From positions 1-35,037 of the forward strand of contig JAAZDN010000009.1 in assembly GCA_012512805.1 (NCBI GenBank): a stretch of 35,037 nucleotides of DNA, in the 5' to 3' direction. How positions within the stretch are numbered: the first letter of the stretch is position 1; every line of letters begins with the position of its first letter. The DNA comes from Erysipelothrix sp. (GTDB lineage: Bacteria > Bacillota_I > Bacilli_A > Erysipelotrichales > Erysipelotrichaceae). Below, piece after piece: positions 9,175-26,974 of the stretch. The translations under genes and the position numbers were made by a program. Under the pieces are notes generated by a model. The model was not told the origin of the DNA. It made no database searches and worked only from the letters and a program-made list of their open reading frames with translations.

Positions 9175-10917
9175 ATGAAAAAATTAACAGCTTATATTAA
9201 AAATATTAGTTTAAACGTATTTAATGCACTCAAACAATTTCCAACGGCATTTTTAAGTGGAAGTGCGATTGCGATACTTGCCTTAATGAAGGTAGAGAAC
9301 TATGATATCATACTTAATTCTCAGCTAAGTGCAGTTCAGTATGGTCTTTTGTTTGCACTATTATTATCACTTGTCTTCACTAAAGTGAACACTTTTTCAA
9401 AATGGATAAAAGAAGCTTTAAGTCTTTTGTTAGGAATAGTACTGGGTGTCAGCTTCGTTGTATTCCGTGTTGATGCACTCACAGGATTGTATGATTCTGC
9501 ACGTATCATTGGTTTTAGTATTAATTTTATTCTATTAAATGCTTATCTCATTTTACTTTCAAAAAATGAATTTAGTGAAGATTATCCAAATGCCTTTTAT
9601 TTCTTAAACAAGGCAGTCTTTGCTTCACTCTTTATTTCACTTGTCATGTTTTTAGGGCTCGCAATTGTGAATACGGCGATATCAAGCCTCATCTTATCAA
9701 GTCATGGTTTTTTGAATACACTCACACTATTAATCCTTTCCTTTTATGTTGGATATCTTTTACTGCTTAGTCAATTGGTGAGAATCGAACATCATAATAA
9801 TCTTGAAAACAATCAGTTCTTAAAAAATCTCTTTAATTTTGCACTTACACCGGTAAGTCTTATTCTTGGTGTTGTTTTGATCATTTGGAGTGCACAACGT
9901 GTCTTTATGAATGTTCAAACCGACTTTGAAACGGTCTTAAGTCTTGTAAGTGCCTATACACTTGTTGGGATATGGCTTTACTTACTTGGTTTTCAACTTA
10001 CCAGTGCGATTACAAAGTTATTTCAAAAAGTATATCCATTTATTGTTCTCATTACAAATACTCTTCTCTGTGTTTCAACATTTAAAGCATATCAAAGTCT
10101 TGGACTTCGATTTGAAACATACTTTGCCTTTTTAAACATTGGCTTTGCACTGCTTGTAATTCTTAGCATTTTTATAAAGATGAAGCCACGATATGTTGGA
10201 ATCAGTCATGGACTCATTACCTTGGCACTCATTACGAGTTTGCCTGTTGTAGGACTTGCACATCTTCCATATCGAAATCAAGAAAAACGTCTTATTAAAA
10301 TATTAGAAGCAAATGAAATGTTAGATAATGATACAGTCCAACATGCTGATCATAATTTGAGTGATTCAGATAAAGAACAGATTGAAAACAGTATTAAAAT
10401 CATCTCTGATTATCCCTTTAAACATCCATCATACTTACCCTCTGATATAAATGAATATCAAACGTTCAATACTGTATTTGGATTTAATAAAAAATACGAT
10501 TATGATCCGGGTGCTAAACAAGACTATTACTTCTTTAATGTAAGAACGGGTAGTGTTGATGTTAGTGATGCATCAAAGGTATTTTTCTTTGATGTTAACC
10601 ATGATAGTAATGAATACCGCTTTTCAGTAAATCAGAGTGAATATGTGATTAAGTTTGTTGAAATGAATGTTGAAATCAGTAAAAATGGACAACATCTTGA
10701 AACACTAGCCTTAGACGAGTTCTATCAAGAACTCCTTACTTATGGACAATCGATGAATGATCTTGGAAACAATGTTCTGACTGATGCGGATCACTTTACA
10801 ATTTTATATACTGATGGTGAGACTTCATTTGATATTATCATGAATTCAATCACTATTTTAGACAATGGTACGATGCGAGTAGAACAAAGATCCGTATTCA
10901 TGATCATTCTGAAATAA
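9175..10917 (+). CDS. Multi-spanning membrane protein, DUF4153-like
   Basis: The first ~370 residues hold about ten or eleven hydrophobic membrane spans (for example AIAILALMKV, YGLLFALLLSLVF, LLLGIVLGVSFVVF, LITLALITSLPVVGLA). The last ~200 residues are soluble and probably outside the membrane. The overall plan and the FLGLAIVNTAISSL region resemble DUF4153 proteins, whose role is unknown; I hold this loosely. The start has a good ribosome binding site (GGAGGG). It is divergent from ppdK across 132 bases. There are no catalytic motifs that I can recognise. Confidence 0.6.
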   Translation: MKKLTAYIKNISLNVFNALKQFPTAFLSGSAIAILALMKVENYDIILNSQLSAVQYGLLFALLLSLVFTKVNTFSKWIKEALSLLLGIVLGVSFVVFRVDALTGLYDSARIIGFSINFILLNAYLILLSKNEFSEDYPNAFYFLNKAVFASLFISLVMFLGLAIVNTAISSLILSSHGFLNTLTLLILSFYVGYLLLLSQLVRIEHHNNLENNQFLKNLFNFALTPVSLILGVVLIIWSAQRVFMNVQTDFETVLSLVSAYTLVGIWLYLLGFQLTSAITKLFQKVYPFIVLITNTLLCVSTFKAYQSLGLRFETYFAFLNIGFALLVILSIFIKMKPRYVGISHGLITLALITSLPVVGLAHLPYRNQEKRLIKILEANEMLDNDTVQHADHNLSDSDKEQIENSIKIISDYPFKHPSYLPSDINEYQTFNTVFGFNKKYDYDPGAKQDYYFFNVRTGSVDVSDASKVFFFDVNHDSNEYRFSVNQSEYVIKFVEMNVEISKNGQHLETLALDEFYQELLTYGQSMNDLGNNVLTDADHFTILYTDGETSFDIIMNSITILDNGTMRVEQRSVFMIILK

Positions 10918-12002: not shown

Positions 12003-13946
12003 CTACTTAAAGATGGCGTTAGTCTTTAAGTTATATATTTTATGATTAATTTCAAGTAAGATTGTATATTCGCCTGATAACTCGTCATCATCATTGATGT
12101 ACTGGTTGACCTGCTGAGTCTCATTATCGAAGATTACGATACACATTGCGGTATATGGACGTTCTGATATTCGAACATTGTAACGTTTGTACTGTAAATT
12201 CTTATAAAGAATCACATTAACAAAATCTTCTTTTTCAAAGTCACCGCTAATGACAAGGCGATTGTGTTCTTGATGAATGTTTAAGTTTAATGCATCTAGG
12301 ACGTCCTCATCAAAAGTGGCATCTAAGAGTCCAAAGCCACTTTCATAAGCGAAACTACTCGATAGACTTCCAAGTGATAGGGAAGGTTTAAACTCAAAGT
12401 TTTGATGACTGTTATAAATAGCCATTTTTTCTGCTCGATAATAGTTTTGATTCGTCTGTATTTCGAAGATTAATTCGTCATTTAACACCTCACTTGTGTA
12501 ACTCGCAAGATCAGTAAATTCAGTTAATCCAGGCGGGACATTGAGTACATTCATGTTATTTTTAGCGTGTCCTCCAGAATGGACAAGATAATGATTGTTA
12601 TCAAGATAATCAACATCAGAGATGTATGGTGAATAGTAGTCACTACCACGTTCTTTTCCATATTCATACACTTGTTCAATGGTTCGCTTGTCTTGATCAA
12701 TCTTGTAAATAACACCACGGCTGTAATTGTTTTCTGCAGCTAAGTACTGGCTTGGATCTTTAGAACGGTTATTACCATTATCAAAGATAAACACATTTCC
12801 ATCCGGTAAAATTTTAGCCGCATGTTGTGAATACGGAAATTCCAAATCACCAATAGGTTCTAAAAAATAAGGAAGCATATCATCACTAAAGGACTCTTTT
12901 TCACCAATAATATAATTAATATTAAGCGAATCATAGTCTAAGTTCACAACAATATCTTGGTGACGTCCTGATAGTGTAAGAGAGTTGGTTTTTTCATCGT
13001 ACCAGACAGAGTTATTATGGAACCAATCCAGATCAACCCAGTTTTCGCTCTTTCCACTTTCAGTGTCTAAAATATTTTTAAGGTCAATTGATTTCACGAT
13101 CTCACCAGTATTACGGTCAATCTCTACGATAACATCCTCAACGGTAAAGGTTTCAAAGTCATTACTTGCGACAATTAAATTACCATTTGGAAGTTCACTG
13201 ACATCATGATGGTAGCCACCCGGTAAGATGTATTCATTATAAACGTAACCTAGCATTGACATTTCATACATCCCTGTTTGATAGTAGGGAGGGTTAATAA
13301 TTTTATCGTTACTTAGAATAAGGTTACCATTATTAAGTGTTCGAATTTCCCACACCAACTGTTCAGTAAGATACCAGCGAACATTACCATTAATATCATA
13401 GGCACTCGTATAGCCAACTGAGGCTGGTGTCATAAAATAGAAGTTTGATTCTAACTGACTACGATATACTTCATTGAGGTGTATATTTGTAATGTTATTG
13501 CTTAAGCCATCAGGTAGTGGTGCAGTTTGAATGCTGAGTGAGGTATTGACATCACCATAGCTAATGATGACTTCATTAGTACTGTCAGCATAAAGACCAT
13601 AAATTGGTAATTGATGTTTCAAAGCCGCATCATAGTCCCAACTAAGATCTGGGCTGTTATGCATTCCTTTCAGTGTTATCGTCACTGGAAGTGCTTCATC
13701 GGTTTCAAATGTAAGCAGTGCACTGAGTGGTGCGATATCGAAGGGATCAAGATAAACTTGAAGTTCTGAATTCACTTCAGATTCGATCTTTTGTGCGATT
13801 AATACTTGTTTTTCTAATCGTGTTGCTTCAACTTCAAGACTTGTGTTGTTTGTAAGTTGAATGTGTTTGTATCCAAAATAACTCGCGATACTCACAAGTA
13901 ATATAAGCATTAGGATTAAACTGTTTTTTATACGTTTATTTTTCAT
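12003..13946 (-). CDS. Membrane-anchored arylsulfate sulfotransferase (ASST family)
   Basis: ASST enzymes move sulfate from one phenolic sulfate ester to another phenol without PAPS, outside the cytoplasm. Residues 9-26 form an uncleaved-looking membrane anchor. An N-terminal beta-sandwich (about 60-145) is followed by the propeller. The residues known to matter in E. coli AssT have clear counterparts: His246/247 in GYHHDVSELPNG, His310 in DWFHNNS, Arg328 in SGRHQD and the sulfate-carrying His375 in SQHAAKILPDG. Its 647 residues are slightly longer than the E. coli enzyme. It is a single gene with ribosome binding site AGGTGA. There is no DsbA-like or sulfate-related neighbour, so its substrate is open. 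Confidence 0.87.
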   Translation of the reverse strand: MKNKRIKNSLILMLILLVSIASYFGYKHIQLTNNTSLEVEATRLEKQVLIAQKIESEVNSELQVYLDPFDIAPLSALLTFETDEALPVTITLKGMHNSPDLSWDYDAALKHQLPIYGLYADSTNEVIISYGDVNTSLSIQTAPLPDGLSNNITNIHLNEVYRSQLESNFYFMTPASVGYTSAYDINGNVRWYLTEQLVWEIRTLNNGNLILSNDKIINPPYYQTGMYEMSMLGYVYNEYILPGGYHHDVSELPNGNLIVASNDFETFTVEDVIVEIDRNTGEIVKSIDLKNILDTESGKSENWVDLDWFHNNSVWYDEKTNSLTLSGRHQDIVVNLDYDSLNINYIIGEKESFSDDMLPYFLEPIGDLEFPYSQHAAKILPDGNVFIFDNGNNRSKDPSQYLAAENNYSRGVIYKIDQDKRTIEQVYEYGKERGSDYYSPYISDVDYLDNNHYLVHSGGHAKNNMNVLNVPPGLTEFTDLASYTSEVLNDELIFEIQTNQNYYRAEKMAIYNSHQNFEFKPSLSLGSLSSSFAYESGFGLLDATFDEDVLDALNLNIHQEHNRLVISGDFEKEDFVNVILYKNLQYKRYNVRISERPYTAMCIVIFDNETQQVNQYINDDDELSGEYTILLEINHKIYNLKTNAIFK

Positions 13947-14447: not shown

Positions 14448-14465
14448 ATGGTACAATAGAGTTGT

Positions 14466-14546
14466 CAAGACAGGGGTGCTTCGGCTGAGATGTGACATCA
14501 CAATCCCTTAAGACCTGATCTAGTTAATACTAGCGTAGGGAGTCTA
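14466..14546 (+). promoter_or_regulatory. TPP (THI-box) riboswitch upstream of thiT
   Basis: The conserved TPP aptamer parts are all present: GGGGTGC, GGCTGAGA, the CCCTTAAGACCTGATC block, and TTAATACTAGCGTAGGGA. P1 pairs AGAC (14468-14471) with GTCT (14542-14545). A promoter with -10 TGGTACAAT (14449-14457) would start transcription right at the aptamer. Downstream, GCGTAG (14533-14538) of the aptamer can instead pair with CTACGC (14556-14561), which is part of the terminator stem. That gives a clear antiterminator/terminator switch: TPP binding frees CTACGC and shuts the gene off. Confidence 0.96.
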
Positions 14547-14557
14547 ACCGACTGACT

Positions 14558-14581
14558 ACGCCTTTACGGAGGTGTTTTTTT
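14558..14581 (+). terminator. Riboswitch expression platform: terminator that also covers the thiT ribosome binding site
   Basis: ACGCCT (14558-14563) pairs with AGGTGT (14570-14575, one G-T pair), followed by Ts to 14581, directly before the ATG at 14582. The 3' arm contains the ribosome binding site GGAGGTG (14568-14574), so the same hairpin could block both transcription and translation. Confidence 0.75.
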
Positions 14582-15088
14582 ATGAATAAAAACAAGAATA
14601 CAACTAGGATGATTGTCAATGTTGCGATCTATGCAGCATTATTTATAGTATTTGATTTAATGCAGAACAATATGGGACTCTTACAAATGCCAAATGGAGG
14701 AAGTCTCGGGATTTCAACGGTTATAATCCTATTAGCATCATATCAATTAGGCTATAAAACAGGATTGCTGGTAGGACTCATATCAGTATTTTTACAATTT
14801 TTAACAGGACCAATGTACATTGTAGGAATCTTAGGTTTTATGTTAGATTATGTAATTGGTTTTGCGGTCTATGGCCTAGCTTCACTGTTTAAAAATTATA
14901 AATATTTTTATCCCGGCGTCCTCATTTCAAACATATTACGCTTTATTTCTGTAAGTTTATCGGGAGTCTATGTATTTGGCTTAGATTGGATACCATCGAT
15001 GGCCTATAACATAACCTACATGCTACCAACTGCTATTGTCGGGATGATTTTGGTTCCAATATTACATGAGCGTTTAAAAACTAAGTAA
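14582..15088 (+). CDS. thiT: Thiamine transporter S component ThiT (ECF type)
   Basis: ThiT is the substrate-binding membrane subunit that works with a shared ECF energizing module (EcfAA'T, not in this window) to import thiamine. The 168-residue protein has about six hydrophobic spans. It shows the family traits MNKNKNTTRMIVNVAIYAAL, GGSLGIST near the first loop, and the GPMYIVGILGFMLDYVIGF segment corresponding to the helix that carries thiamine contacts. The TPP riboswitch directly in front makes the assignment secure. There are no thiamine biosynthesis genes nearby. Confidence 0.93.
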   Translation: MNKNKNTTRMIVNVAIYAALFIVFDLMQNNMGLLQMPNGGSLGISTVIILLASYQLGYKTGLLVGLISVFLQFLTGPMYIVGILGFMLDYVIGFAVYGLASLFKNYKYFYPGVLISNILRFISVSLSGVYVFGLDWIPSMAYNITYMLPTAIVGMILVPILHERLKTK

Positions 15089-18090: not shown

Positions 18091-18632
18091 TGTTAGTTGA
18101 ACAAGTTACATTAAGTGATGGACTCATCACCTTAAAAAGCTTAACGCTTAATGATGCTTACGCCTTACATGAAATGTTAAGTGATGTTAAGCTTACAGAA
18201 AGTGCGGGATTGCCTCTGCACACGCACGTACATCAAACGATGGACTTTATATTGGAAGGCAATGAAGGCGTTAAGAGCTATCAACAATATTTCTATGGTA
18301 TTTTTGTAAATCGTAATTTAGTCGGGCTTATTAATCTCTTTAATGTTGATTACGTTAAAAGTGATGGTGAATTTGGCTACTTTATTGGTAGTGAATACCA
18401 ACGTAATGGCTATATGCGTCGCGCTATTAAACTCTTAAGTGATTTCGTTTTAGAGCAAACAAATTTAAAAGCAATTAATATTTATATTGATACGAGTAAC
18501 CAAGCATCCTTACGCTTAGCACATCGCTTAAATCTAAAAGCAGGTTCAGAAAGTATTGAAACAGATCAGGCGAATCGTACAATACAGATGGTTAAATATG
18601 TCATTGACGATAAAAGTCAATCGGACCTTTGA
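18087..18632 (+). CDS. GNAT family N-acetyltransferase (RimJ/RimL type)
   Basis: This 181-residue acetyl-CoA-dependent acetyltransferase carries the acetyl-CoA loop in EYQRNGYMRRAIKLL and the closing motif NQASLRLAHRLNLK, as in RimJ/RimL-type enzymes that acetylate protein N-termini or small amines. Its ATG overlaps the MATE stop codon. The pairing of an exporter with an acetyltransferase could mean joint handling of a toxic amine or drug, but this is only suggested by position. The promoter of the following transketolase genes overlaps its last codons. Confidence 0.85.
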   Translation: MMLVEQVTLSDGLITLKSLTLNDAYALHEMLSDVKLTESAGLPLHTHVHQTMDFILEGNEGVKSYQQYFYGIFVNRNLVGLINLFNVDYVKSDGEFGYFIGSEYQRNGYMRRAIKLLSDFVLEQTNLKAINIYIDTSNQASLRLAHRLNLKAGSESIETDQANRTIQMVKYVIDDKSQSDL

Positions 18633-18657
18633 ATTTTATCATTAAGCATGATATTAT
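18629..18657 (+). promoter_or_regulatory. Promoter of the transketolase operon
   Basis: TTGAAT (18629-18634), a 17-base spacer and TATTAT (18652-18657), overlapping the GNAT stop codon. Confidence 0.6.
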
Positions 18658-18679
18658 TAATAATAGATTGGAGATAATT

Positions 18680-19489
18680 ATGAACATCAAAAAATTAGAA
18701 GAACATGCATTGCATATTAGACAGAATATCGTCGAAATGGTTTATGCAGCTGGATCAGGTCATATTGGAGGATCTTTATCAGCAGCAGATATCGCATCAT
18801 ACTTATATTTTGAAGCGATGAATATTGATGAAAGTAATGTGGATTCAAATAAACGTGATCGTTTTGTTTTATCAAAAGGACATGCTTCACCACTACTTTA
18901 TGGAACATTAATGGAAAAAGGATTACTAGATCGTGCTTTAATTCCACAATTTCGCCAAGTTGATTCACCACTAGAAGGACATCCATCACGTGGTACATTA
19001 GCAGGAATTGATGCTTCAACAGGATCACTAGGACAAGGGATCTCACAAGCAGTTGGTATGGCACTTGCAAACAAGATTGATGGCAATTCAAATACTGTAT
19101 ACTCACTTGTTGGAGATGGTGAGAGTCAAGAAGGACAAGTATGGGAAGCAGCAATGTCTGCAGCTCATTTTGAACTCAATAATTTAATCGTCTTCTTAGA
19201 CTTCAACCAACTACAAATTGATGGAGACATCAAACAAGTTATGAACCCAATTCCTTTAGATGAAAAATTTAAAGCCTTTGGATGGAACGTTATTGAAATC
19301 GACGGACATAACTTTGAAGAGATTGATCAAGCAGTAAAAGCTGCACATCAAAGTGAAAGTAAACCTACTTTAATTTTAGCGCGTACAATTAAAGGTAAGG
19401 GTGTTAGTTTCATGGAAAATGAAGCAGGATGGCATGGAGTTGCTCCAAGTTTAGAACAATTTGAAGCAGCAATGAAGGAGTTGGTATAA
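18680..19489 (+). CDS. Transketolase, N-terminal subunit
   Basis: This is the first half of a two-chain transketolase, binding thiamine diphosphate and the pyrophosphate magnesium. It has GSGHIGGSLSAADI near the N-terminus, the catalytic-site His in SKGHASPLLYG, and the thiamine diphosphate motif GDGESQEG...LDFNQLQIDG. The 269 residues fit the split form found in many Firmicutes and archaea. The start is the ATG at 18680 behind TTGGAGA; an upstream in-frame TTG (18629) is part of the -35 box. Its TAA overlaps the ATG of the next subunit (TAATG), so the two chains should be made in step. Confidence 0.95.
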   Translation: MNIKKLEEHALHIRQNIVEMVYAAGSGHIGGSLSAADIASYLYFEAMNIDESNVDSNKRDRFVLSKGHASPLLYGTLMEKGLLDRALIPQFRQVDSPLEGHPSRGTLAGIDASTGSLGQGISQAVGMALANKIDGNSNTVYSLVGDGESQEGQVWEAAMSAAHFELNNLIVFLDFNQLQIDGDIKQVMNPIPLDEKFKAFGWNVIEIDGHNFEEIDQAVKAAHQSESKPTLILARTIKGKGVSFMENEAGWHGVAPSLEQFEAAMKELV

Positions 19490-20418
19490 TGAGTATGGTC
19501 GCAACACGTGAAGCATACGGTAAAACGTTAGCTGAATTAGTCGAAGAAAATGAAAATATTATTGTTTTAGATGCTGACTTATCAGGATCAACAAAAACAG
19601 CGGATGCTCGTAAAGCACGTCCAAACCAACACTTTAACTTTGGTATTGCAGAAGGAAACATGATGTCAGCAGCTGCAGGTCTTGCAGCAAGCGACAAGGT
19701 TGTTTTCGCAAGCACATTCGCAATGTTTGCGGCAGGTCGTGGTTTTGAACAAATTAGAAACTCAATTGCCTATCCAAACATGAACGTTAAAATTGCGGCA
19801 ACACATGCGGGTATTTCACTAGGAGAAGATGGGGCAACTCACCAGGCTATTGAAGACATATCACTCATGCGTTCAGTACCAAACATGACCGTTGTTTCAC
19901 CATCAGATGGACCTGAAACAGCAGCTGCTATTCGTGCTGTTGCGGAGTATGTTGGACCAGTATACGTTCGTTTAGGACGTCTTGGTGTTCAAACAATTAA
20001 CGATAATGCAGATTATAAATTTGAACTTGGAAAAGGTGTTGTCCTTTCAGAAGGTCAAGACATTGCAATCTTTGCAACAGGTTTAATGGTACAAGAAGCA
20101 TTAAAAGCAAAAGAAATCTTAAAAGCTGAAGGATTAAATCCAACAGTCATTAATATACATACGATTAAGCCAATCGATAAAGACTTAATTATCGAAACTG
20201 CAAAAACTCACTCACTCATCGTTACAGCTGAAGAACACAACGTAATTGGTGGTCTTGGATCAGCAGTTGCTGAAGTTTTAGCAGTCAATCATCCAACACG
20301 AATGATCATGGTTGGAGTCAACGATACCTTTGGTGAAAGTGGTAAACCTGCTGACTTATTAGCGAAGTATGGTATTAATGCAGACAATCTTGCAAAACAA
20401 ATACTAGACAATAAATAA
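19489..20418 (+). CDS. Transketolase, C-terminal subunit
   Basis: This 309-residue second chain carries the pyrimidine-binding and C-terminal domains: LDADLSGSTKT, the glutamate in FGIAEGNMMSAAAGLA that activates thiamine diphosphate, FAMFAAGRGFEQIRNS, and HAGISLGEDGATHQ. It starts at an ATG overlapping the previous stop codon, with AAGGAG eight bases upstream. Together with the N subunit it moves two-carbon units in the non-oxidative pentose phosphate pathway. The cofactor can come from thiamine taken up by ThiT. A tRNA gene follows after 35 bases. Confidence 0.95.
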   Translation: MSMVATREAYGKTLAELVEENENIIVLDADLSGSTKTADARKARPNQHFNFGIAEGNMMSAAAGLAASDKVVFASTFAMFAAGRGFEQIRNSIAYPNMNVKIAATHAGISLGEDGATHQAIEDISLMRSVPNMTVVSPSDGPETAAAIRAVAEYVGPVYVRLGRLGVQTINDNADYKFELGKGVVLSEGQDIAIFATGLMVQEALKAKEILKAEGLNPTVINIHTIKPIDKDLIIETAKTHSLIVTAEEHNVIGGLGSAVAEVLAVNHPTRMIMVGVNDTFGESGKPADLLAKYGINADNLAKQILDNK

Positions 20419-21659: not shown

Positions 21660-21689
21660 TTGAGCATGAAAGTTATAATATGTTATAAT
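21660..21689 (+). promoter_or_regulatory. Promoter of the RNase J/ftsK operon
   Basis: TTGAGC (21660-21665), 18 bases, then TGT-TATAAT (TATAAT at 21684-21689). The leader of about 85 bases contains a small hairpin (TTTGAG/CTCAAA) and no recognisable riboswitch. Confidence 0.5.
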
Positions 21690-21781: not shown

Positions 21782-23434
21782 ATGAACGAAATTAAAATAT
21801 TTTCACTTGGAGGACAAGATGAAGATGGTAAAAACCTATATGTAATTGAAATAAACAATGATATTTTTATTATTGACAGTGGATCAAAGGATGCTGAATC
21901 AGGACAATTAGGTGTTGAAAAAATTGTAGCAGATACAAGCTACTTAGCAAAAAACAAAAAACGCATTAAAGCACTCTTTATTACACATGCACATGATGAT
22001 GCCTTTGGTGGTTTAACACACTTATTACAAGATGTTAATGTACCTATTTATACAACGGCATTCCCCGCAACACTCATTCGTCAAACATTAAAAGATAAGG
22101 GCATTAAAAACGTTGAAATTCATGAAATTGAGCGTAGTCAAATCTTTAAGATTGCGAAAACTGAAATTAGAACCTTTAAGGTTACAAACTCAGTCCCAGA
22201 TTCATTTGGGATTGCGATTCGTACGAAATACGGAAACATTATTTATACAAATGAATTTATTGTGGACTATGATATTGGCTTACATGCCTTTGCATCAGAC
22301 ATTAGTGAAATAGCTGAAATTGGAAAAGAAAAGGTCTTTGCACTACTTAGTGAATCAACGGGAGCAAATACATTAGGCTATACGGCTCCAAGCCATAAGA
22401 TTTCACATGTATTAGAAACACACATTGATGAGGCAAAGGGACGCATTATCATTACGTCATATGCCCAAAATATTTACCGTGTTATTGAACTTGCGGAACT
22501 GTGTAATCGTACCGGCCGTAAACTCTTCTTCAAAGATAAGAAGATGTTAGATACAATGTCACTCTTAAAGAAACTTGACTACTATCACTTACCAGCGAAT
22601 GTTGTCGCAACACTCGAAGATTTAGAAAAACCAAATACAATTGTACTTGTAACAGGTGATGGATCTGAAGTCTTTAAGAAGATGTTTGCCATTACAGCTG
22701 GAGAAGATGAACGTCTGACGCTTAATAGTGATGATACAGTCATCATTGCCTCACCATCAGTTCCTGGTGTTGAAATCGAAGCAATGGCACTTGAAAATGA
22801 ATTGTACAAGGATGATCATAAGGTCATTACGATTAAAAAAGATAAACTCTCATCAATGCATGCATCTCAAGAAGATTTAAAGATGTTACTATACTTATTC
22901 AAACCACGATTCTATATTCCGGTAAAAGGGGAATATCGTCACTTAGCAGCGAATGCTGATCTCGCAATGAGTGTTGGAAATATTGGTGCAGACCGTATTA
23001 TTATTTTAGACAATGGACAAATCGCAACCTTCGTTGATGGAAAACTTAAGAATGCATCAGAAATGATCAGTGCTGAAGATATTATGGTTGATGGTACAGA
23101 CAGTCTTGAAGAGGGAAGTTTAGTTCTTAAAGATCGTGAAACACTCTCTACAGATGGTGTCATTATTATCGGAATCTTACTTGATTATAAAACAAAGAAA
23201 ATTATTGGTGGACCCGATGTACAAACTCGTGGGCTCTTATACGTACGTGACTCAAGTCATGTCTTAAAAGCAGTAAGTGATATTATGGTTGAAGCTGTTG
23301 AAAATGCAGTTAAAGAAAATAAATACACAAATTCTGATGTACGCTCTGAAGTAAGAATGCGTGCAGGGAAATATGTCATGAAAGAAACAGGTAAACGTCC
23401 AATGATCTTACCTGCAATTGTTGAAGTAAATTAA
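21782..23434 (+). CDS. rnjB: Ribonuclease J family protein with degenerate active site (RNase J2-like)
   Basis: The full RNase J plan is present in 550 residues: metallo-beta-lactamase core, beta-CASP insert (VIITSYAQN-type block near 223-230) and C-terminal domain (GVIIIGILLDYKTKK onward). Compared with the seven metal ligands of Bacillus RNase J1 (H74, H76, D78, H79, H142, D164, H390), this protein has His69, His71 and Asp73 but Ala74 (HAHDDA instead of HxHxDH), Asn136 (NSVPD for HSIPD), Glu158 (TNEF for TGDF) and Lys382 (PVKGEYR for PIHGEYR). It is therefore probably weak or inactive as a nuclease, like RNase J2, which supports RNase J1. The neighbour ftsK/spoIIIE is also near rnjB in Bacillus, which supports the J2 assignment. 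A J1 gene should exist elsewhere. Confidence 0.88.
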   Translation: MNEIKIFSLGGQDEDGKNLYVIEINNDIFIIDSGSKDAESGQLGVEKIVADTSYLAKNKKRIKALFITHAHDDAFGGLTHLLQDVNVPIYTTAFPATLIRQTLKDKGIKNVEIHEIERSQIFKIAKTEIRTFKVTNSVPDSFGIAIRTKYGNIIYTNEFIVDYDIGLHAFASDISEIAEIGKEKVFALLSESTGANTLGYTAPSHKISHVLETHIDEAKGRIIITSYAQNIYRVIELAELCNRTGRKLFFKDKKMLDTMSLLKKLDYYHLPANVVATLEDLEKPNTIVLVTGDGSEVFKKMFAITAGEDERLTLNSDDTVIIASPSVPGVEIEAMALENELYKDDHKVITIKKDKLSSMHASQEDLKMLLYLFKPRFYIPVKGEYRHLAANADLAMSVGNIGADRIIILDNGQIATFVDGKLKNASEMISAEDIMVDGTDSLEEGSLVLKDRETLSTDGVIIIGILLDYKTKKIIGGPDVQTRGLLYVRDSSHVLKAVSDIMVEAVENAVKENKYTNSDVRSEVRMRAGKYVMKETGKRPMILPAIVEVN

Positions 23435-23454: not shown

Positions 23455-25674
23455 ATGGCAAAGAAAATGACAAAAAAACAACAACGTCTCTATGAACTTA
23501 TCGTTAGTATTATTGTCCTTAGTATGCTTGTCATTGCCTTGTTCAAATTAGGCATCGTTGGCATTACAATTGATAAAACAATTCGTTATTTGTTTGGACA
23601 GTTTCATATTGTCATGTACCTTATCAGTTTTACGTACTTGTTTTTCATACTCTTCGATAAGAAAGCACTCAAACAGTCTGGACGCATATATGGAGGATTA
23701 ACACTCTTATTTATAAGTTATCTTCTCTTATCTGCGTCAATCAGTCATTATAATTTAAGTAAAATGCCAGCCTTTGCATATTTTATTGAGCACTCTAAAG
23801 AAATCTTTAATTATCAACGTGTGGCAAGTGGGGGCTTCTTTGGTACTGGATTATACAGCATTTACACGATGTTATTTGATGTGTATGGTACGTATATTTT
23901 AATTGGAGTTACAAGCTTAGTAGGACTCTTACTTATGTTTGGTACCCAAATATTTAAGGTATTTAAACTTAAAGAACGACCTGAAAAAATAAAGGTTGAA
24001 AAAGAAAAGAAAGAACGTCAACCATGGTTTAAACGTAAAGTAGAAAAAGAGAGTGTTCTTCTTAGTAACTTAGAACATGAAATTCCCTTTGAAAATGTTG
24101 AAGAAGAAGTGAAACCAAAGGAAAGTATCTTTATTTCAATTACGGATGAGCCTGAAATAAAAACTGAAACATTAACTGTATCTGAAAACAGTAGTGATCA
24201 TTTACAACAACTTACATTAAAAATAGATAATGATGCTGATGTTGTGGTATCAAAACAATATCGACTTCCAAGTTTAACCTTACTGGATACAGCACTGAAG
24301 TCTTCTAAATCATCGAAGAACTCACAGGCTGCTAAAGCGAAGGGGACACATTTAATAAAGGTATTAAAAGAATTTAATATTGAGAGTGAACTTATCGATA
24401 TTCATATTGGACCTTCGGTTACAAAATTTGAAATTAGACCAGATTCTTCTGTGAAAATATCACGTATCAGTTCAATTACCGATAACATTAAGATGGAACT
24501 TCAAGCGAAGAGTATTCGTATAGAAGCCCCAATCCCTGGTAAAAATACGGTTGGAATAGAAATTCCAAACATTGAAAATACACCAGTTAGACTTTATGAA
24601 ATTATTAAGAATATGGATTCAAAACAACCGCCATTACAGTTTGCACTTGGTAAAGATCTTATGGGGAATATAATCTATAGTGATCTTGCGAAGATGCCAC
24701 ACCTCTTAGTAGCAGGAGCTACGGGTGCTGGTAAGTCGGTTGCACTGAATGCCATGATCACCACCTTACTTTTAAGAAGTAAGCCAGAAGATGTTCGCTT
24801 ACTCTTAATTGATCCTAAGAAAGTAGAATTCAATAGTTTCGCAAGTGCACCACATCTTATGACTCCGATCATAAATGAAGCCAGTCATGCGAATCTAGCC
24901 CTACAAAAGATTGTAGAGTTAATGGATGATCGCTATCGTGCCTTTGCTAAGATTAACGTTAAAAACATTAAAGCGTATAATGAATATCGTTTGATCAATA
25001 CTGATGTACAGCTTGAGAAATTACCCTTACTTGTTGTGATCATTGATGAGTTAGCGGATTTAATGATCGTAGCCGGAAAAGAAGTTGAAGGAAGTATTCA
25101 ACGCATTACCCAACTTGCTCGAGCTGCTGGTATTCATTTAATTGTTGCAACGCAACGACCATCAACGGATGTCATTACTGGAATTATTAAGGCAAACATT
25201 CCATCACGAATCTCATTTGCGGTATCAAGTGGAATTGATTCACGTACAATACTTGATACAGTCGGTGCAGAGAAGCTCTTAGGAAACGGGGACATGTTGT
25301 ACTATCCTGTTGGTTACTCAGCTCCTGTACGTCTTCAAGGGGTCTTTATAACCGATGAAGAAGTTATACGTGTTGCGAACTATGTTGGTAAGCAGCCAAG
25401 TCCAGATTACTTTGATGAGTTTGCCTTTGAAACGATGAGTGAAAGTAGTAATGGAAACAGTAACTTTGATGATGCCCTCTACGATGATGTTAAGGCCTTT
25501 GTTATCGCACAACAGAAGGCGAGTACTTCACTCATTCAAAGAAACTTTGGAATTGGATACAACCGTGCAGCCCGTATTATTGATTCACTAGAAGCACACG
25601 GTATTATTGGCCCGATGTCAGGAAGTAAACCACGTGAAGTGTATACGCAACCTGATCCTGATTTAGATTATTAA
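23455..25674 (+). CDS. ftsK: FtsK/SpoIIIE family DNA translocase
   Basis: This is a membrane-anchored motor that pumps DNA at the division septum. The first ~175 residues hold about four membrane spans, followed by a charged linker (about 178-280). The motor domain has Walker A GATGAGKS (421-428) and Walker B VVIIDELADL (Asp531, Glu532). The C-terminal gamma winged helix (about 670-735, ending in NFGIGYNRAARIIDSLEAHGIIG) recognises polar DNA guide sequences. The 739 residues fit SpoIIIE-size proteins. It starts 20 bases after the RNase J gene behind GAGGATGG, so the two are co-transcribed, and ends at a strong terminator. Confidence 0.95.
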   Translation: MAKKMTKKQQRLYELIVSIIVLSMLVIALFKLGIVGITIDKTIRYLFGQFHIVMYLISFTYLFFILFDKKALKQSGRIYGGLTLLFISYLLLSASISHYNLSKMPAFAYFIEHSKEIFNYQRVASGGFFGTGLYSIYTMLFDVYGTYILIGVTSLVGLLLMFGTQIFKVFKLKERPEKIKVEKEKKERQPWFKRKVEKESVLLSNLEHEIPFENVEEEVKPKESIFISITDEPEIKTETLTVSENSSDHLQQLTLKIDNDADVVVSKQYRLPSLTLLDTALKSSKSSKNSQAAKAKGTHLIKVLKEFNIESELIDIHIGPSVTKFEIRPDSSVKISRISSITDNIKMELQAKSIRIEAPIPGKNTVGIEIPNIENTPVRLYEIIKNMDSKQPPLQFALGKDLMGNIIYSDLAKMPHLLVAGATGAGKSVALNAMITTLLLRSKPEDVRLLLIDPKKVEFNSFASAPHLMTPIINEASHANLALQKIVELMDDRYRAFAKINVKNIKAYNEYRLINTDVQLEKLPLLVVIIDELADLMIVAGKEVEGSIQRITQLARAAGIHLIVATQRPSTDVITGIIKANIPSRISFAVSSGIDSRTILDTVGAEKLLGNGDMLYYPVGYSAPVRLQGVFITDEEVIRVANYVGKQPSPDYFDEFAFETMSESSNGNSNFDDALYDDVKAFVIAQQKASTSLIQRNFGIGYNRAARIIDSLEAHGIIGPMSGSKPREVYTQPDPDLDY

Positions 25675-25909: not shown

Positions 25910-26974
25910 ATGAAAAAAACATTCAAGTTTTTAGTTTTAGCAACATTAGTTTCTTTAGTCTTAGTTGCATGTGGTGGAAACGGCACAACTGAAACAGAAG
26001 CTAAAGATCCAGGATTTAAAGCAATTATCGTTTTAGATACAGGTGGAGTTGATGATAAATCATTTAACGAATCAACATGGGATGGCGTTCAAAAGTTCAT
26101 CGCAGATAACGGATTAGATAAAAATGCATTTGAATACATTACATCACCAGATGAAGCTTCATATGTAAACAACTTAGAAACTGCTGCTGAAAAAGCTGAC
26201 TTAGTTATTGCAGTTGGATTCTTATTTGAAAAAGCAATCGCTGAAGTTGCTCCTAAATATGAAGATACAGAATTCTTATTCATTGACGGTTTTGTAGAAA
26301 ACATTCCTAACTTACACAGTACTACTTTTGCTGATGAACAAGGTTCATACTTAGTAGGATTAATTGCTGGTGCTCGTTCAAAAGCTGATGGATCAAACAA
26401 AGTTGGATTTGTTGGTGGTATGGAATTCGATACAATTTTAGCATTCCAAGCTGGATTTGAAGCTGGAGTTTGGGAAACTAACCCAGATGCAGAAATCTTC
26501 GTAGACTACTTAGGAAGCTTTGTTGATACAACATTAGCAGGACAAGTTGCTTCAAGAATGTACAATGATGGCGTAAACATTATTTATCATGCTGCAGGTG
26601 ATGCTGGTAACGGTGTTATTACTGAAGCGAAAAACTTTGACGATAAATACGTAATTGGTGTTGATAAAGACCAATACGAAGCTGGAAAATCACAAGGTGA
26701 AGATTCAGTAGTTATTACTTCAATGCTTAAAGGTGTTGACGTTGCTGCTTATGACTTCTTAGAAGAATTCTATGTAAACAAAAAAATTACAACTGGCGTA
26801 TACAACTTTGACGTTGCTAACGACGGAATTAGAGCTGAAATTTCAGAAGGACGTAACTTAGACGCTGATGAAATTGCACTCATTAAAGATTACATGGCTA
26901 AAATTGTAAGTGGTGAAGTTACTGTTTCAAGAACACCTGAAATTACTGGTGCTTCAGGAACAAAAGCTAAATAA
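25910..26974 (+). CDS. BMP family (Med/PnrA-like) nucleoside-binding lipoprotein
   Basis: This is the extracellular binding protein of a nucleoside-type ABC importer. The signal peptide ends in the lipobox LVAC with Cys21 as lipid anchor, and the mature part starts GGNGTTETE. The family blocks DTGGVDDKSFNESTWDGV, GFLFEKAI, FLFIDGF, and ADEQGSYLVGLIAGARSK are the PnrA/Bmp ligand pocket parts. Length is 354 residues. It has its own strong promoter and ribosome binding site (GGAGGAG). A terminator at 27001-27030 separates it from the transporter genes, which have another promoter; this arrangement gives far more binding protein than transporter. Confidence 0.94.
   Translation: MKKTFKFLVLATLVSLVLVACGGNGTTETEAKDPGFKAIIVLDTGGVDDKSFNESTWDGVQKFIADNGLDKNAFEYITSPDEASYVNNLETAAEKADLVIAVGFLFEKAIAEVAPKYEDTEFLFIDGFVENIPNLHSTTFADEQGSYLVGLIAGARSKADGSNKVGFVGGMEFDTILAFQAGFEAGVWETNPDAEIFVDYLGSFVDTTLAGQVASRMYNDGVNIIYHAAGDAGNGVITEAKNFDDKYVIGVDKDQYEAGKSQGEDSVVITSMLKGVDVAAYDFLEEFYVNKKITTGVYNFDVANDGIRAEISEGRNLDADEIALIKDYMAKIVSGEVTVSRTPEITGASGTKAK

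Follow-up and report, generated by a model that had tools for sequence, protein, structure and literature searches.

RNase J2 proteins that bind RNase J1 and have low or no exonuclease activity alone are known only from Staphylococcus aureus, Enterococcus faecalis, Bacillus subtilis and Staphylococcus epidermidis. In S. aureus, cells carrying the J2 double mutant H76A-H78A are wild-type-like, while cells lacking J2 are sick, which makes the J2 active site dispensable. A catalytically dead J1 can partly substitute for J2 in this species, and the authors proposed that the active site is provided by J1 and that J2 is structural (PMC3937233). The J2 of E. faecalis binds J1 with a KD of 74 nM, a value hardly altered in dead mutants, and is itself a weak nuclease that requires H69 and H71 (PMC5383250). 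The J2 of S. epidermidis binds one Mn, held by H76, H78, H80, H144 and E166, and the residues that replace D78 (His) and D164 (Glu) are thus still Mn-binding. This protein is weakly active at 72 µM and pulls down J1, in an interaction described as low-affinity (PMC7864078).

The stretch of DNA analyzed here (the window) comprises 35,037 nucleotides of Erysipelothrix sp. contig JAAZDN010000009.1. The gene at 21782–23434 (+) encodes a protein of 550 amino acids, identified as an RNase J2 ortholog (rnjB) with three of the seven canonical metal ligands from its open reading frame, Pfam and NCBIfam matches, alignment, tree position and AlphaFold2 model. Four Pfam domains, RNase_J_C, RNase_J_b_CASP, Lactamase_B and RMMBL, each score above the cut-off and make up the complete RNase J domain order, in agreement with the full architecture recognized in an earlier reading of this DNA made from the sequence alone (the sequence-only reading). 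The C-terminal (oligomerisation) domain RNase_J_C covers residues 448–549 (23123–23428, +; 89.5 bits). The protein belongs to the RNase J family by the NCBIfam model TIGR00649 (431 bits, cut-off 400), and its score against the NCBIfam RnjA (J1) model, 438.8 bits, is far below the cut-off of 820. A promoter-like site (TTGAGC-18-TATAAT with an extended -10; 21660–21689, +), which is a consensus match, is located in the gap upstream of rnjB.

Ligand positions were mapped by MAFFT alignment, using H74, H76, D78, H79, H142, D164 and H390 of B. subtilis J1 as reference. H69, H71 and D73 of the window protein correspond to H74, H76 and D78 and are kept. The other four ligands are replaced, H79 by A74, H142 by N136, D164 by E158 and H390 by K382. 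The kept residues and A74 lie in the motif H69-A-H71-D-D73-A74 (HAHDDA; 21986–22003, +), which reads HGHEDH in J1. The N136 codon (22187–22189, +) takes the place of a metal site 1 ligand, the E158 codon (22253–22255, +) that of the bridging ligand, which is Glu in S. epidermidis J2 too, and the K382 codon (22925–22927, +) that of a metal site 2 ligand. The counterpart of the 5'-phosphate motif SGH (residues 366–368 of B. subtilis J1) is S358-M359-H360 (22853–22861, +), and SMH is common among the J2s of related families. A catalytic RNase J1 has all seven metal ligands; the window protein, with HHDANEK, has three. The J2s of two congeners, which share 87% and 72% identity with the window protein, carry the identical four replacements. 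The sequence-only reading had named the residues Ala74, Asn136, Glu158 and Lys382, the intact His69, His71, Asp73 and His360, and the change from SGH to SMH. The translation bears out every one of these residues, the SMH change is seen in the alignment, and the aligned positions do correspond to those of J1 and J2. Its hint that the degree of loss is unusual does not hold. S. epidermidis J2 likewise keeps three of the seven canonical residues (HHHAHEQ), so the ligand loss in the window protein is no extreme and falls within the known range.

To place the protein, a maximum-likelihood phylogeny of 79 sequences was constructed with IQ-TREE. The 42 sequences that lack one or more ligands all fall in a single clade (support 100/99), recovered in all 200 bootstrap trees sampled, and every sequence outside this clade has seven of seven ligands. 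The clade contains S. epidermidis J2, B. velezensis rnjB, L. monocytogenes J2 and the window protein. It was recovered again when mycoplasma-like sequences were added, with their J2s inside the clade, though on long branches. The broken HxHxDH motif (HAHDDA) and a J1 paralog elsewhere in the genome, which are used to recognize a J2, are both found here.

The gene order points the same way. An FtsK/SpoIIIE DNA translocase gene (23455–25674, +), a conserved neighbor, lies 20 bp downstream of rnjB, and a BMP/PnrA-like lipoprotein gene (25910–26974, +) is found downstream of ftsK. The rnjB genes of B. velezensis and Cytobacillus likewise have ftsK/spoIIIE downstream in the same orientation; Cytobacillus adds gntR and a BMP-family gene, so that the latter likewise comes after rnjB-ftsK-gntR. 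Within the same family, 16 of 18 relatives have the rnjB-ftsK order, and so do all 12 from the sister family. One of the two exceptions has a two-base overlap and was left uncounted; the other gives no ftsK match, on a locus truncated by a contig end. In families further away this order is not conserved. The placement in the J2 clade together with the rnjB-ftsK gene order identifies the window protein as the organism's RNase J2 (RnjB).

Several other features were identified in the window. A TPP riboswitch (Rfam RF00059, 68.9 bits) at 14462–14558 (+) immediately precedes a YuaJ-type thiamine transporter gene (14582–15088). A transketolase at 18629–20418 (+) is split in two adjacent genes, encoding the N-terminal half (18629–19489) and the C-terminal half (19489–20418). 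The gene at 12003–13946 (−) encodes an arylsulfotransferase (ASST) family protein with an Ig-like N-terminal domain. The 580-amino-acid protein encoded at 9175–10917 (+) has no Pfam or NCBIfam match.

Loss of ligands, taken alone, might also be expected of a species-specific J1 duplicate that decayed independently, or of a pseudogene. We give this explanation practically no credence, since both the tree and the purifying selection refute it. An independently decayed recent duplicate of J1 is excluded by the tree, in which the J2 clade is older than the split from Bacillales. A pseudogene is excluded by the open frame, an omega of about 0.1 and replacements common to the congeners. The dN/dS of the J2 gene is 0.08 against the nearest congener and 0.15 against a second one, rough values with dS of 1.3–1.4, near saturation. 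Taken with the replacements shared by the congeners, these values indicate that the ligand loss in rnjB is due neither to chance nor to pseudogene formation.

Constraint differs among the parts of the protein. In the comparison with the nearest congener, omega is lowest in the C-terminal domain (0.03, a value from one species pair) and highest in the N-terminal metallo-beta-lactamase part (0.13). The J2 C-terminal domain shares 97% identity with that of the nearest relative (G001), compared with 83–86% for the other domains, while the C-terminal domain of J1 from the same two genomes shares 92% identity and shows no special conservation. Across 46 genomes, the divergence of J2 exceeds that of J1 by 1.6-fold in the beta-CASP domain, 1.4-fold in the N-terminal lactamase part, 1.2-fold in the C-terminal lactamase part and 1.1-fold in the C-terminal domain. 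The beta-CASP residues that are invariant among J1s are largely released in J2. Such a pattern is expected of a protein freed from constraint on catalysis but still needed for assembly; it is no proof of this.

The sequence-only reading had suggested searching the genome for another RNase J with every ligand, and one is found. The genome assembly of the window has a size of 1.17 Mb in 122 contigs, with 6.6% contamination, and contains exactly one other RNase J above the family cut-off (G000:C49:9146-10783; L002). This protein has seven of seven ligands with the HGHEDH motif and TGH at the phosphate pocket, and it groups with the J1s of related genomes. It shares 33% identity with the window protein, and the two fall in separate clades. 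The gene just before it encodes a product that resembles peptide deformylase, as read from the sequence. The J1 shares 92% identity with that of the nearest congener and is nested among the J1s of the same family in the tree; it therefore belongs to the organism despite the contamination of the assembly.

AlphaFold2 predicts an RNase J fold for the window protein with confidence (pLDDT 87.8). The best matches of the model in the PDB are the integrative RNJ2-RNJ1 model (9a5v), J1 (3zq4) and S. epidermidis J2 (6k6w), with an rmsd of 1.9 Å to 6k6w over 442 columns of the catalytic domains. Full-length structural matches give high rmsd, probably because the C-terminal domain is oriented differently.

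Compared with the staphylococcal J2 (RnjB of S. epidermidis and S. aureus; PDB 6k6w, 8yyk), the window protein belongs to the same clade and shares the replacement of H79 by Ala, that of D164 by Glu, the loss of H390, the number of canonical ligands, a J1 paralog with a full site and the close overlay of the catalytic domains. The two differ in that the staphylococcal protein keeps H142, has His at D78 and Gln at H390 and binds one Mn, whereas the window protein has Asn (N136), Asp (D73) and Lys at these positions. Bacillus rnjB shares with the window gene its clade, the downstream ftsK/spoIIIE on the same strand and, through 9a5v, the top structural match. The ligand positions of B. velezensis J2 read HHENHDN, against HHDANEK in the window protein, and in Bacillus a ClpP-like gene and a ylzJ gene stand between rnjB and ftsK. 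RNase J1, both that of B. subtilis (3zq4) and the organism's own, has the same fold and domain order as the window protein and differs in its intact HHDHHDH and its separate clade. A decayed J2 with an intact J1 elsewhere in the genome is a known arrangement in Bacillus-like bacteria, found here in a little-studied relative.

A survey of related genomes was performed to follow the ligands across J2s. In the 55 genomes in which both copies were read, J1 always has seven of seven ligands and J2 never does. The number of canonical ligands kept in 75 J2s is six (n = 15), five (n = 10), four (n = 29), three (n = 8), one (n = 9) or zero (n = 4). H79 and H390 occur together in none of the 75. Every J2 thus has a broken second-metal site, through loss of H79, of H390 or of both, and which residue is lost varies by lineage. 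The minimum number of changes on the tree, per ligand label, is 6 for H79, 5 for H142, 6 for D164 and 3 for H390. The J2s of the window's genus are among those that have additionally lost H142. Outside the mycoplasma-like families, almost every J2 retains H74 and H76. These families use TGA as a sense codon and show the deepest loss. Their J2s have no ligand (L163, L165, L167 and L169) or one (as in L172), for example DKETGNQ, while the J1s of the same genomes are intact. Lys or Arg occupies position 390 in 38 of the 75 J2s, all 38 of which have lost H79; with other residues at this position, H79 is kept in 21 of 37. This association involves 3–4 phylogenetically independent pairs, too few for testing a functional link.

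One genome (G018) gave no match to either RNase J or FtsK, apparently being unsearchable, and was dropped. J1 was not found in three draft assemblies (G016, G029 and G040), which gave a J2-like copy only, and missing contigs would give the same picture as loss of J1. In one of them, a 0.8-Mb genome that is 98% complete, the J2-like copy (ligand positions HHEHHNI) is the sole RNase J found (G040:C6:43288-44919; L096). G051, from family f13, encodes a third RNase J with all ligands (L111, 1–1801) that branches with clostridial RNase J, which suggests horizontal acquisition, and other genomes of this family likewise give three RNase J matches.

It is possible, although on balance we doubt it, that J2 is turning into a pure pseudonuclease across the class. 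Site 2 would have been lost first, by lineage-specific substitutions, and site 1 afterwards, ending at zero ligands with the gene kept. Lys or Arg at position 390, which is found only where H79 is lost, would perhaps stand in for the second metal as a fixed positive charge, so that the dead pocket stays folded or can still hold RNA. A 2014 survey of Mollicutes reported J1 and J2 in all Mollicutes and discussed both as nucleases (PMC4014445), and the minimal genome Syn3.0 reportedly keeps RnjB, described as an unexpected gene (PMC4993169). Our literature search, of incomplete coverage, found no paper on J2 as a pseudoenzyme and no survey of J2 ligands in Mollicutes. That J2 exists and has a structural role is already published; the small addition here is the class-wide series from six of seven ligands to none with J1 always intact, for which the same search gave no earlier report.

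For the window J2, by far the most probable role is that of a non-catalytic subunit paired with the intact J1 of the same cell. A J1-like two-metal site cannot form, with site 2 lacking H79 and H390, site 1 lacking H142 and Glu in place of the bridging Asp. The protein would pair with J1 through its dimer and C-terminal domains, would stabilize this partner and modulate its 5'-3' exonuclease activity, and may assist in holding RNA. That it forms a heteromer with J1 and acts structurally would be expected by analogy with the J2s of S. aureus, E. faecalis and B. subtilis. J2s that have the two histidines show weak residual activity, so complete inactivity of the window protein is an inference. 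The scaffold or regulatory subunit proposed in the sequence-only reading is thus supported by J2 orthology, the intact J1 and the literature on S. aureus and E. faecalis J2, but that reading did not recognize the protein as the known RNase J2.

The main competing explanation, which we consider unlikely, is a weak one-metal nuclease, in which H69, H71, D73, E158 and perhaps N136 would hold Mn or Ca and RNA would be cut slowly and mainly endonucleolytically. The single Mn and the activity at 72 µM of S. epidermidis J2 are consistent with it, and so are the retention of H74 and H76 outside the mycoplasma-like families and the presence in the window protein of both histidines needed by the active E. 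faecalis J2. However, two of the five Mn positions of S. epidermidis J2 carry other residues in the window protein (N136 for H144 and D73 for H80), removal of both histidines from S. aureus J2 gives no phenotype, and related families keep the J2 gene after losing every ligand. Less probable still is that the protein binds RNA and regulates J1, by competition or inhibition at 5' ends, with no stable heteromer formed. In its favor, parts of the 5'-phosphate pocket (S358 and H360) and the positive K382 are present, but known J2s bind J1, and constraint on the protein is highest in the C-terminal domain, with the J1-invariant beta-CASP residues largely released.

The role of RNase J2 has been obscured by traces of activity in the model J2s. 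In lineages where J2 persists with zero ligands and J1 is intact, the scaffold role can be told apart from any residual catalysis, and this can be tested directly. For the window, the practical outcome is the annotation of this gene as rnjB, probably non-catalytic.
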